Origin: Tetracentron sinense
Taxonomy: Eukaryota; Streptophyta; Magnoliopsida; Trochodendrales; Trochodendraceae
Reading direction: 5' to 3'
DNA length: 64,000 nt
Assembly: GCA_015143295.1 (NCBI GenBank)
Contig: CM026560.1
Location: forward strand, 6,512,501-6,576,500
Made by a program: the position numbers and the translations under genes. The stretch's first letter is position 1; each line of letters begins with the position of its first letter. The notes beneath the pieces were generated by a model. The model had not been told where the DNA came from. It saw only the letters and a list, made by a program, of their open reading frames with translations, and searched no databases. Below, piece after piece: positions 24,084 to 61,896 of the stretch.

Positions 24084-24862
24084 CATACGCAGATTTTCTT
24101 CATTAAGGGTGTTTACGACTTTAACCACCACCCCTTGCCTATAAATAGGCTGAGTTCGTGCCTTAGGGTTTCAGAAACCCTCCATGCCCTATCTTAGGAG
24201 ATTTTGAAAGAGAGAAGGAGGAGAGGAACTACTTGTGATCAAGCTTGAAGGAAGATCAAGCTCTCTTTGGTGATTCTCAACCAAGAACTCAAGGTTCTTG
24301 CTTGTTCAAGCTTTTTGGAATCGGACTCATTGATTTCACCAAGGTAGATACACTCTACTAGCAATCTTGCAATCCTACTGAGTTACTAAATGAAGTTCTT
24401 CTAAATCTATACTACTTATGTATATATCTTGGATGATTATGGTGTGAAAGTATGTGATTATATACTTGCATGGAAGATACTTTTATGATGCACTCTCTAT
24501 GATAAGCTCTAAGATCGTCTCACAAGCTCTACGGATCATAAATGTAACGCTCTAAGATCTCTAAAGATATGCTCTATGTGCTCTATGGTATCTCCATGTC
24601 TCTACGGATCATAATGACTCTAAGTAACTCCATGAACTCACAAGAACTCACAAGGCTATGATTATCGCATGACTCACACGGATATGGTTTTGGTTTCGGA
24701 TTTCGGATTTCGTCACATATGCTACACATGATTTCTACGCTTTGATATGCTTTAAGGATTTCAATCTCCATGCTTCGTATGCTCGATGCTATATTGCTTT
24801 ATTATTATTAGTTTGTATACGCTGAGTATTCCACACTCAACGGATATTTGTTATCAAGAGCA

Positions 24863-24997
24863 GGTGCTCGGGCTCCGTTTGATCTATGTGGCATGGAACC
24901 ATGGGTAGAGGAAGAATACTTCGACCCAGAGCCATCCATGGATCACTATCAGGATGATGGCGCAGTAGATAGGTGTCGAGGCTTCCACTTTTGTTGA
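24863..24997 (+). other. Conserved short reading block inside the Tekay-like LTR (b copy)
   Basis: After an acceptor-like CAG the frame reads APFDLCGMEPWVEEEYFDPE and ends FHFC before a stop. The same kind of block, with [31 protein letters not shown] or APFNVCALGPWVKEEY, occurs at matching positions at 43878-43999, 26409-26532 and 59852-59962 (all minus, which is the sense strand of those LTRs). Each copy also has an AG-GT-type donor-like border near its end. The role is unknown. It is compared here only as separate copies. Confidence 0.7.
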
Positions 24998-25439
24998 TCG
25001 GCAGACTTAGAACTTTAAGGTGTTCTTTTGTTATGTGTGAGTGGGGTTTGTCCACTCCACTTTTGGGTTTCTCACATGTATATACTTTTGTTGGTTCATA
25101 CTTGAACCGAGTTATAGGAGTAATTGTTTTGCTTCCGCTATGTTTGGTATTTTATTTCCGTTGTGCATTGTATTTTGTTTCCTCTATGTTGTTCAGGTTT
25201 TCTGGCAGGTCTCCATGTGTGCCTTATGTATTATATTGGAGGTATGATACGGCGGTCACGAGTCAATGTATCCCTAACTCCTAGGGGGTATTTTGGGTCG
25301 CGACAGGTGGAGCCTCATCCAAAGGTGCAACTTTACGTTCGACGTCATCTACAAAGATGGTGATAGTGAATGTCAATTTGGTCAAGTTCAAGTTCCACTT
25401 TATGAGTTGAATGGTGGTAGAAGGAGGAAAGGAATCCTT

Positions 25440-26159
25440 CATTCAAATAAGTAAAATTTTCAAATAACTTGACTCAAGTAAAATAACCTCATTGAAATAA
25501 CTTGAAAAAGCTTATCTGGATGAACAAATAACAGAAACTCTAAGGTGTTCCATGATGCCCTAGGATCCCCTCTTCTTGGGACGGTCCCAATTGCTCTATT
25601 ACCTTATAGTCTCAAGTGATAGAGAAAGAGATTTCTTGATATGTTGGATTATTTAAAATTACCCTAAATAGGGTTTATATAGATTCAACAACATAGACTT
25701 TTATGGAAAGTAAATCAACCTAATCTAATCATACCTAATCAAGTCTAATCTACAGTTGATTGATGCTAATCTAATATTGTGATAAGATACACTAAATGAT
25801 GTAGTGTATCTCATTCACCTTATTAGAATGCTCTTCTTTATTCTCTAATACTTCTCCTCAAACATACGGGGATTGAAAAATCTCCTTGTGTTTGCCGCTA
25901 AAAAAAGTCCACCTTTAAATCTTCACTACATGCTTGCTTGTTGATGGGTGAGTATCCTACTCATCTTGATCTGGTTATAAGAAGGGATTAGCCTCTCGTG
26001 ACTGATAAATGTGAGCATCAATGAACTTGAGAAATAGGCCTCTATGAACCTAGAATTTTGGTCTCTGAAGACCTAAAAAGAGGGCCTCTATGGGCCTGGA
26101 GAAGGAGCCACTAATTGGGCTAAAATGGGCCTCACTGGGCACAAGAAAGGCCTCACAAG
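25440..26159 (-). mobile_element. LTR-retrotransposon tail (polypurine tract and 3' LTR), family unresolved
   Basis: On the minus strand a purine tract (GTTTGAGGAGAAGTATTAG, about 25840-25860) is followed by LTR-like sequence with GTGTATCTCATTC-type motifs. The part above 25860 is rich in GGCCTCTATGGGCCTGG-like words. The same layout is present on the + strand at 38090-38740, so the two are copies of one family. It is cut at 26159 by the next LTR. No coding domain is recognised. Broken fossil. Confidence 0.55.
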
Positions 26160-58672: not shown

Positions 58673-58689
58673 TTTTTTCAATCGATTCA

Positions 58690-59435
58690 TAAAGTTAAGG
58701 ATTTAGGTAGTGTAAGGGTAAAAATCGGTAAATACACCTAACGACAATTGGAAGGAACCAACGGCTCTTGATTAGACCAACAGATTCGTCTTGATCGTCA
58801 CAACTGACCCCAATTCGCACACTAGATCCGAGGCAAAGCTCGGGTCGGGGTATACTTTCCAGACCTGACCTGCCCCCCCCCCCCCCCCCCAGCTTGGAAG
58901 GTTCGAGGCGAAGACACCTCAACCTTCAAACCATCGAGAGTGTAGTTCAACTCAATCCAATTTCAAAGATTCATAACAAATCATGGCAACCTCCTTCTAA
59001 ATAGTGAACTCAATCTATTGCCTAACTAGCAAGAACCTACGTGCAAGGAAAGACATCGAAGATTCATAACAAATCATGGAAACCTCATAAATAGTGAACT
59101 CAATCTATTGCCTAACTGGCAAGAACCTACGTGAAAGGAAAGACACCTATTTCATGAAGGAATGGGAATGGAAAGACAATTGGCCCACCCTAATTTTATC
59201 TCTATAGAAAGGGATCCGCATCCTCCCAAACTCAAGCATACTTTGAGTCTCAACCCTTCCAAAACCCTGACAAATCTTTCTTATTCCTCCCTTTAACCAT
59301 TCTATTATTGACTTAATCATCTGAGTGCATTCGCAGGTAAACCAGTCAACCCGATCCAAGGAACAAGGAGCGCAGCTGCTATCTAGAAGCATATACTTGG
59401 TATCACAGGCAGCAGAGCAAGTATTTTTACCCACA
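58690..59435 (+). mobile_element. LTR of a Tat-like element (left end uncertain)
   Basis: The right end (ACCCACA at 59435) directly precedes the primer-site-like TGGCGTCGCTTGTGGGAA. Upstream are a run of 18 C (58873-58890) and a tandem duplication of 93 bp (58966-59058 and from 59059). The left end is not defined. A fossil. Confidence 0.55.
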
Positions 59436-59568
59436 AAAATTGGCGTCGCTTGTGGGAAACGATCATCATCGATGAGACAGTACAACCCCTCATCCTCGAG
59501 TAAGATAAAACCGATACTCTTCAAGAGACATGTCTCTAGGTAGCCAATCAAAGAACGATCATGGGCGA

Positions 59569-61896
59569 TGTCGCGACCCAAAACCCACCCTAAGAGTTAG
59601 AGTGAACTTTGGACGACTAATCATGACTTACACGACTTGCTTGACAAACCATCCTGCAAAAACCCACAGAGCATATACAAAGAGGATATAAACAGCATAG
59701 CGGAAGACTAATCAAACCTCTATGTACGTATATACATGATCCAAGTTTGTACAACAAGATACGCAAAAGAAAGTGCGGACAGGCCCGCCAAAATACATGA
59801 ATACATCTCTCTCAATTCACCCATAGCTATCCACTCAGAATCTACCACAACCTAATAGTAACCTTCACCCTGAGGTTCCTCCACAGGCTCCTCAACGTAC
59901 TCCTCCTTCACCCATGGGCCAAGAGCACAGACATTGAATGGAGCAGCAGCTCCCTCAGCACCTGCCGACATAAGAAGTACGGCTGAGCATGGAATACTCA
60001 GCGGGTACCAAACACTAACCAACAGTCCTAGCCACACCATAGCAGTATAGGAAGCAGGAAGCAGTTCACATATATAAAGCAGGAACAATTAATATCATAA
60101 CAAGGAAATAAAGAAATTTATAATCATGCTTGCATTTTATAAAAATCGATAAAACCCTTGAAAACATCGTGCACTTGACTTGACTTAAAATCCTCGTTTT
60201 GTGCTTTAAAACTCGTCTTGTCATGTGTCTTGTTTTGTCGTGTCGTGTCATGCGTGTCGTACTTGTATCATGCGTGTACCATGCTTGTCATGCGTGCTTG
60301 CTTGAGAATTTAACATGCTCATGTACTTGTGAGGTGTGCTTGTGAGTGAGGGGAGACCCCTCATGGAAGGGAGGGAAGTGTAAACTCCCTCCTAAGAAAT
60401 GCTTGTTCTTGTCCTCTTGTCAAAAGCGAGGTAAAACATATCGTAAGATATCTCCTACCCCTAACATCCTTACTCTTGCAAAACCGTAGGTAAAACATGT
60501 CATGCATGCCGTGCTCGTGGAATCGTATGCATACTTTCATTTGAAATTAAATATGACAATTTGGGGATTTCACAATACATAGAACATCAAAATTTGAGCA
60601 AGTAATCATTCATTCAATTTTTTAGGGAAAGCAAGTAAGCACACTATCATAAGCCCTAGCAATTCCATAAACATTTAAACATGCATTTTCCACTACAAAT
60701 CGTCATTTTCTCCATTGAGGCATTTCATCAAACACATGGTATGTGTATTTTGGTTAACACCTAAATCTTTCATTTTATCCTACATGAATCATTCTTCATT
60801 CAATCCACATCATGTATGTTCATTATTGAGGTGAAATGCCCTTCCCATTTTAATCATCACAACACAACCCACGGCATCCAATCGCCTATTCATGTCCACA
60901 CAACCATCCATTCATCCCATTTCCTTATCTTGTTTAGAAATGAGGGAAAATCATAAAACGAAGGAAAATAAAGAGTAGAGATGGACTAGAAGGGTAGTAT
61001 AAGGTACCGACCTTGATTTGGGGTTGAATAACACCCTTGATGTGGATTCCAACTTGAGGAAGAACTCCCACTTGGGTATGGAGAACTCGTGATGCTTTGG
61101 GGAAGCCCCTTGCTTGAAATTTCCCAAGCTTGAACTCCCTTTGATCTCTCAATCCAAGCTCCTTGGAGGATTTCCTCAAAATCCTCTCTTCCTCTTTCTC
61201 CCATTTTCTCTCCTCTAGGTTAGAAATGCCCCAAAATGAGGATCCCTAACAAGAAAAGGGTTTGAGACCCTTAAATCCGGAATCTGCTACCGTATGCGAT
61301 CGATCGCACACTTATCTGCGATCGATCGCACTCGGATGCGATCTATCGCACATGAACCCGAACATTTCTGGTCTGATTTCCCTCTGCATGCAATCGATCG
61401 CACACTCTTGTGATCGATCGTAGATCCCTGCGATCTATCGCACCTGGGATCCATCTATCGCATATGGCCCCGAGAGTTTGGGACCCATTTTGCCTGTATG
61501 TGATCGATCGCACCTGACTTGCGATCGATCGCACCCTTCAGATTTTGTTGTTTTTCTCCTATTTTTCCACACTTTGGTAATTCGGCCATAACTTTTGACT
61601 CGGTTGCCTGATTTTGACGATTCAACTTGCGTTGGATTCTTCTTTCGAAAAGGAACATTCCTGATGTTTCAGAATTTCCAATTTGTTCTTTATTTATTGA
61701 CTAAATTGCCCCTGAAGTTGACTGATCCACAAATGGGTTTCAGTAACTCGAGTTTTCGATATATTTGACTTAGGAATACTACTTCTTAACACTTAGAGTT
61801 GTTCAAAATTTCTCATTTCATAGAAATGGAAGATTACAAAGGCTTCATGCCTTGGCACGGGTCCCAATACATGACAAAAAGTTCCGGGGCTCTACA
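59569..61896 (-). mobile_element. Solo Tekay/Del-like LTR with perfect GGCGA target duplication, 2328 bp
   Basis: The ends are TGTCGCGACCCAAAACCC and TTCCGGGGCTCTACA. GGCGA flanks both sides (59564-59568 and 61897-61901). In the minus sense it has a CGATCG array (61295-61534), a donor-like AAG-GT near 61011-61016, low-complexity CTTGTCATG repeats and an acceptor-like CAG near 59962. The conserved reading block follows at 59852-59962. No internal region is present. It inserted into the gag region of the Tat-like element. Confidence 0.9.
61295..61534. repeat. Array of TGCGATCGATCGCA palindromes
   Basis: Nine copies near 61295, 61317, 61338, 61388, 61408, 61429, 61450, 61500 and 61520. Several are perfect 14-bp palindromes and others have one or two changes. 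They occupy the U3 of the solo LTR, just upstream of its inferred promoter. Confidence 0.9.

Follow-up and report, generated by a model that had tools for sequence, protein, structure and literature searches.

Long terminal repeats (LTRs) of retrotransposons are usually treated as regulatory, non-coding sequences. A protein coded inside an LTR is sag of mouse mammary tumour virus, which has its own start codon in U3. Here, we analyzed a 64,000-nt stretch of the Tetracentron sinense genome (assembly GCA_015143295.1, contig CM026560.1, positions 6,512,501 to 6,576,500; "the window"), in which five LTRs or LTR pieces (W1 to W5) contain a conserved block of 27–44 codons. Judged by its substitution pattern, the block is a protein-coding exon under purifying selection on one sense frame, extending from an acceptor to a conserved stop codon. 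Like sag, it is a case of protein coding inside an LTR, but it lies downstream of a TATA-like box, is probably included by splicing, and has no start codon in two families. A selected coding exon that occurs across families would mean that LTR annotation misses protein. All comparisons were made within this one genome (1.16 Gb), and every TATA box, donor, and acceptor was identified by sequence match; a hyphen within a motif marks the splice border.

Spliced Gag-only RNA has been described for a plant retrotransposon before, as the Ty1/copia element BARE1 of barley forms a subgenomic RNA for Gag alone (PMC3735527). This resembles the situation that is proposed here from DNA sequence alone, but BARE1 is a copia element, and its abstract mentions neither an LTR exon nor a conserved new tail. 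For shGAG of EVADE, a Ty1/copia element of Arabidopsis, splicing is described to remove the protease part, and a frameshift gives a stop codon (PMC12786077). Alternative splicing would end Gag translation soon past the junction in both systems; however, this is achieved by a frameshift stop in EVADE, whereas a conserved LTR coding exon is proposed here. In Ogre, a Ty3/gypsy element of the Tat group, an intron of the polyprotein region is described to be partly spliced (PMC6317226). The full-length relatives analyzed here are likewise plant Ty3/gypsy elements with a removable intron in this region, but it is located between gag and protease rather than between GAG-PROT and RT as in Ogre. In the same survey, which covers plant LTR elements, two separated open reading frames (ORFs) are attributed to Bianca and Ogre, and Tekay is not listed with them in that section (PMC6317226). 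CERV of the C. elegans element Cer1 is reported to be needed for export of unspliced RNA (PMC10309623); its likeness to the tail product discussed below is one of description. A full-text search, which covered titles and the starts of abstracts and had most subscription papers outside its reach, retrieved no report of a plant LTR that contains a coding exon.

The coding nature of the block was analyzed with genomic copies of three families. W4 belongs to family A, W2 to B, W1 to C, and W3 to D, and L-numbers designate genomic loci or pieces. The initial loci of family A had been retrieved with a protein search, and the initial pieces of family C had been selected from one, which biases any frame test; copies were therefore collected anew with DNA queries. 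For families A and C, the queries lay outside the block, and every second of 40 listed places was taken (20 each); the query for family B includes the block. The ratios of nonsynonymous to synonymous changes (dN/dS) were calculated with the uncorrected Nei-Gojobori method, with all pairs pooled and bootstrapping over codons. In the block frame, dN/dS was 0.31 for family A (19 copies; bootstrap 0.18–0.51), 0.28 for family C (20 copies; 0.18–0.46), and 0.38 for family B (26 copies; 0.24–0.60), the last value being possibly slightly lowered because copies without the anchor were left out. The excluded rows were 1 of 20 in family A (L111) and 4 of 30 in family B (L024, L032, and L036 lack an EEEY-like anchor, and L011 was wrongly anchored). 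The remaining two sense frames yielded 0.80–0.98. The first-pass annotation had noticed conservation at the protein level, and this was borne out: among the sense frames, the ratio is well below 1 in the block frame only, in all three families. Because copies accumulate mutations once inserted, these ratios underestimate the selection that acts in active lineages. Among the antisense frames, the one that shares wobble positions gave 0.38–0.53, and the other two gave 1.01–1.55. Antisense coding was rejected, as the ratio of the wobble-sharing frame was above that of the sense frame (0.28–0.38) in each family, although the bootstrap ranges overlap. Third codon positions held 47–51% of all differences among the A, B, and C copies. 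In-frame stop codons were present in 2 of 19 (A), 9 of 26 (B), and 7 of 20 (C) copies, compared with 13–26 copies for the shifted frames, and frame-breaking indels occurred in 1, 5, and 2 copies, respectively.

Differences between the families showed the same pattern. In a seven-codon core they amounted to 0.29–0.58 per site at third, 0–0.32 at first, and 0–0.06 at second codon positions; ungapped cores were used (18/19 A, 25/26 B, and 20/20 C copies), and the copies of families E, F, and G were picked by the motif. The back-translated core PW(V/I/M)EEEY had 10,872 + 10,888 = 21,760 exact matches in the genome, counted as words irrespective of their LTR context, whereas the reversed control had 0 + 0. 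The first 50 listed matches comprised 30 distinct DNA words. An intact acceptor AG ahead of the block was present in 18 of 19 copies of family A, 21 of 26 of family B, and 19 of 20 of family C. Four tail peptides had no Pfam match at E values up to 10, and one had no match in the PDB, which is weak evidence as the peptide has only about 40 residues; within the window, Rfam had no match at the gathering level. The absence of a known homologue in Pfam and PDB would fit a captured host exon, as had been suggested in the first-pass annotation, or a dead relic without function in the element. However, host-exon capture found no support, selection acts within and between families, and decay after insertion alone would give a dN/dS near 1, which speaks against a relic, so that this explanation is very improbable.

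To characterize the borders of the exon, A and B loci were scanned with sliding windows over their first 2,050 bases, including about 1.5 kb upstream (the A set was protein-collected). The block was the only region with low windows in both families (A 0.25/0.40; B 0.37/0.46), and elsewhere isolated one-frame windows of 0.38–0.47 were found, some with few pairs or adjoining the block. In the 12 codons upstream of the exon, the block-frame ratio was 0.64 in families B and C, and downstream it was 0.55 and 1.42, respectively. In family A, the upstream ratio was 0.51 (0.39 in the protein-collected set) and the downstream ratio 0.59 (protein-collected set), and therefore the exon edge is not sharp in this family. 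Ahead of the acceptor, 60 nt show nucleotide-level conservation, which may depress these ratios. The reading frame upstream of the acceptor varies among copies (LSIPCSA.. or EYSMLSR..), and on the other side conservation stops at the stop codon that follows an aromatic or Cys end (GYY, LDYC, or DFDFC). A string GATAG-GTGG had been taken for a donor-like border near the end of the block. This was not confirmed, as GATAG-GTG(G/T) in W1, W2, and W5 sits within the conserved frame (DRW, DRC), which runs on to the stop codon, and is missing in W4; thus, there is no exon border at this site.

The conserved stretch of about 60 nt before the acceptor (24803–24863 on the plus strand in W1, with equivalents in W2 to W5) comprises GCTGAGTATTCCATGCTCAGC and CCGnn...nnCGGCAG and could form two small hairpins, ending at the AG. 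At the acceptor, CCGAT could pair with ATCGG in family C and CCGAA with TTCGG in family B, and 3 of 5 pairs are possible in family A. Such a hairpin would be in line with conservation of the RNA or DNA sequence rather than of a protein. Behaviour of a nucleotide-level signal is, however, confined to these 60 nt; for the block itself it is contradicted by the silent third-position variation and by the constraint in one frame only, and we regard this explanation as highly unlikely.

In the window, the block was found in five copies, in agreement with the four or five Tekay-like LTRs that had been noticed at first, and all five exons are in phase 1. Each is preceded by a GCAG acceptor-like site, so that the acceptor-like start was verified as well. 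The LTR W1 spans 23683–25305 on the plus strand (TGTAGAGCCCC...GGTCGCGACA), has no primer-binding site after its end, and is probably a solo LTR, flanked by GGTGA and GGTGG. Its TATA-like box (CTATAAATAGG) is located at 24139–24149 (+), and its donor-like CACCAAG-GTAGATA at 24337–24350 (+), with the GT at 24344 (border 24343/24344), followed by ACTCTACTAG. The W1 coding exon (24864–24997, +, including the stop) follows the acceptor GAGCAG and reads GARAPFDLCGMEPWVEEEY...RGFHFC; the tail peptide has 11 Asp/Glu and 3 Arg among 44 residues. The remaining copies are on the minus strand. The W5 exon (26409–26533 including the stop) has the sequence GTFDICAPDPWIKEDY...WPYPRYY and is read as GTFDICAPDPWIKEDYGKEELAKALPEEDRNLDRWPYPRYY before the stop, and the 3′ end of its LTR lies at 26160–26168. 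The W2 exon (43878–43999 including the stop) ends with WPYLDYC, and the 3′ end of its LTR piece (GGTCGCGACA) is at 43644–43653. In W3, the front half of the exon is kept (44717–44799) and the rear half is unrecognisable; its donor-like TTAAG-GTATAACACTC occupies 46726–46741, with the GT at 46736 (border 46737/46736) and again ACTCTACTAG thereafter, and its TATA-like box 47080–47092. W4 is a solo LTR (59569–61896) with the 5-bp target duplication TCGCC on both sides; its donor-like CAAATCAAG-GTCGGTACC lies at 61003–61020, and its exon (59852–59961 including the stop; GAEGAAAPFNVCALGPWVKEEY...GYY) is read as GAEGAAAPFNVCALGPWVKEEYVEEPVEEPQGEGYY before the stop. A second acceptor-like site, (T)TTTGCAG-G, is present about 70–85 nt before the LTR 3′ end in W4 (about 59662–59654, −) and W3 (44490–44484, −), and also occurs in L085 and L086.

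In relatives, the primer site TGGTATCAGAGC comes after the LTR 3′ end GTCGCGACA, which shows that the block is read in the same direction as its element. This primer site, which we take to be of the tRNA-Met type, follows the LTR end exactly in L025, L055, L064, L069, and L087 and with a few different bases in L015 and L024. W1 to W5 have no primer site in the 25–49 bases after each LTR end, and their membership in Tekay rests on the similarity of their LTRs to full-length relatives. The latter are probably members of the Tekay clade of chromoviruses, in line with the chromodomain that is expected at the integrase C-terminus of this clade: the L079 piece, from one family C element, matches PF00385 Chromo with 30.4 bits (cut-off 25.1). 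RVT_1 was found in L080. LTRs of different families could be aligned only partially, with about 59–72% identity, except for short stretches near the LTR 3′ end.

Next, the internal regions of elements were analyzed for an upstream partner of the exon. If the block were the last exon of a spliced product, a phase-1 donor would be expected in gag, and such a donor near the gag end was predicted before any gag-end sequence was examined. Phase-1 introns between gag and protease were found in L080 (C; 149 nt), L081 (B; 138 nt), and L082 (A; 150 nt), with a T content of 41–44%. The donor follows ..ASDDVVQ (CAA G-GTACG; the B copy, which is decayed, has TAA in place of CAA), the protease side reads ..L(A/T)RVLIDTGSTHS, and removal of the intron yields a continuous frame. 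Searched against Pfam, the pieces from gag, protease, and the end of pol gave matches to Retrotrans_gag, RVP_2, and Chromo. In an unbiased element sample, in which 31 of 40 pieces were uninformative for this boundary, the intron was present in all 9 informative elements (4 A, 5 C), and none had an intronless boundary. The spliced gag-protease junction was found at 46 genomic places (up to 3 mismatches; control 0); thus, either reverse transcription has acted on spliced genomic RNA, or there have always been relatives without the intron. Intronless junctions also occur in pairs 7.2–7.7 kb apart on one strand (G000:C9:23871893 and 23879131; C1265:24847 and 32545), which suggests tandem LTR-internal-LTR-internal arrays. 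The tail of pol was rejected as an upstream exon after inspection of one element, L079, the pol frame of which ends normally (KYPHLFE and a stop) with no phase-1 donor nearby by eye.

We propose that the block is a terminal exon, and that splicing of gag into the 3′ LTR gives Gag an acidic tail of about 40 residues; we assign a probability of roughly 0.53 to this reading. Transcription would start downstream of the TATA-like box, and joining of the LTR donor to a gag acceptor would generate an mRNA with a short, AUG-poor leader. The donor at the gag end (..ASDDVVQ), which we infer to be the donor used for the tail, would face two acceptors. Use of the nearby protease acceptor would lead to Gag-Pol, and use of the alternative acceptor in the 3′ LTR, more than 4 kb away, to a Gag-only mRNA, the product of which would end in the acidic tail with its PW(V/I)EEEY core. 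The stop codon and the predicted poly(A) site of this mRNA would lie in the LTR, the exon copy in the 5′ LTR would be a passive duplicate, and a hairpin at the LTR acceptor could damp its use. Somewhat more tentatively, the LTR may be a true coding part of the retrotransposon genome, the alternative terminal exon of which adds an acidic tail with the end W-P-Y-L-D-Y-C or G-Y-Y to Gag or a Gag-derived protein and so provides a second Gag isoform with a job of its own, in elements that also have their own introns. By analogy with CERV of Cer1, one guess is that the tail has a role in sorting or in export of unspliced RNA. The Ty3/gypsy chromoviruses of this plant may thus set the Gag to Gag-Pol ratio via the choice between two acceptors, and the source of extra Gag in such elements becomes a directly testable question.

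Several results weigh against splicing of the gag/pro donor to the LTR exon. The intron to the LTR acceptor would exceed 4 kb, and the phases of donor and acceptor would agree by chance in 1 of 3 cases. The gag-tail junction, searched with one A/C pattern, was found at 0 places in the genome; this was expected because such an RNA would lack U3 and would hardly be copied, but it gives no support either. The prediction that intronless elements lose the exon failed. The block was kept in 20 of 22 intronless pieces (it was not recognised in L130 and L148, which were excluded), and its dN/dS in these pieces was 0.28 (bootstrap 0.14–0.50). Repeated recent loss of the intron may explain the retained exon, but in part only. 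In a tree of A copies, constructed without support values, intronless copies occupy at least four places, and the intron-bearing L153 and L156 (blocks L113 and L116) adjoin the intronless L085, L086, L132, and L147. One clade of 11 intronless copies, for which intron-bearing sisters were not seen, is still constrained (0.30), and it may represent an old lineage. In addition, the two intronless family A elements that were read share two phase-1 GT sites in gag-pol (offsets 778 and 2929), and the shared LEQ-G site in gag (CAAG-GTTCG) is also present in L055 and L064.

In the manner of CERV of Cer1, the exon could instead be the tail of another spliced product, with its upstream coding exon ending at a different donor within gag-pol or being read in another frame. 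The constraint on the exon in elements without the gag/pro intron and the shared GT sites favour such a donor. However, the LEQ-G position has no GT in the family B element L024 and is not in phase 1 in the family C element L069, which reads CAAGGGTCG, whereas all three families A, B, and C have the gag/pro donor. Therefore, another donor is a possible but rather unlikely explanation, and the failed prediction together with the shared LEQ-G site is the reason why the mechanism with the gag/pro donor is kept at moderate confidence.

The first-pass annotation had also noted a donor-like AAG-GTA with a common downstream motif, which was seen in W1 and W3 at the borders given above, and had interpreted it as part of a spliced and partly coding LTR leader. 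In both LTRs, the donor follows the TATA-like box, and the W1 donor site recurs in 8 of 10 further family C pieces (L069–L078; it is missing in L069 and L074), so that by its sequence context the donor looks genuine. A model in which splicing within the 5′ LTR joins the block to LTR exon 1 would draw on this strong donor and its common motif. The W4 exon 1 (61204–61012, −), with an open frame from ATG to donor and a phase that matches the block, would fit as well. However, in family C, all 9 copies whose piece includes the donor have a block-frame stop codon 3 codons ahead of it, and in W3 a stop is located directly before the donor. In family A, one-base indels occur among the copies, and only 1 of 14 exon 1 copies (L039, which is W4) has an in-frame ATG after the last stop. 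As relatives break it, the open frame of W4 is probably due to chance or confined to one subfamily. Furthermore, no exon 1 window had a ratio as low as the block, and the exon 1-block junctions (one for C, one for A) were found at 0 places in the genome. Because of the stops, the indels, and the lack of both junctions, the LTR donor is unlikely to open the block; exon 1 was rejected as a coding partner, and this model is improbable. Taken together, the splice-like architecture of the LTR stood up to analysis, but the joining of the block to the upstream LTR donor did not.

The more likely partner of the LTR donor, to judge from motif positions, is an acceptor-like site just ahead of the gag ATG. 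CTCAG or CTTAG was found 10–11 nt ahead of this ATG in 6 of 6 elements (A, B, and C); of two further elements, L084 has TTTTCAG and L083 an altered CTCAAG. Exon 1 would then be an untranslated gag leader, and the intron to the gag acceptor would remove U5 and the primer site. Few ATGs were found in exon 1: 0 in 323 nt of W3, 1 in 172 nt of W1, and 0–2 over the final 200 nt in 14 copies of family A. In W3, a tandem array of units of about 60 nt (45258–46160) lies within what would be the leader intron.

Alternatively, unspliced RNA could be translated from a short ORF that covers the block and uses the ATG immediately ahead of the acceptor (ATG TCG GCA GG) as its start codon. This ATG is present in 17 of 19 unbiased A copies, in W3 and W5, and in both family E copies. 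In contrast, none of the 26 B and none of the 20 C copies has it, although these are equally constrained; they also lack any in-frame ATG before the PFD part. As the frame upstream of the acceptor varies among copies, too, a short ORF is an improbable source of the conserved peptide.

If LTRs are coding, solo LTRs would also spread complete terminal exons through the genome, each with an acceptor, a stop codon, and possibly a poly(A) site.

The window also contains a large imperfect palindrome (31211–33236) with internal repeats of about 150 nt and arms that are about 83% alike. Further tandem arrays are located at 12567–13279 and 39321–39883, the latter with a 14-nt period. An open frame at 30534–31007 (+) resembles, by eye only, a piece of a cysteine-rich DUF26 receptor kinase and is likely a host gene fragment.

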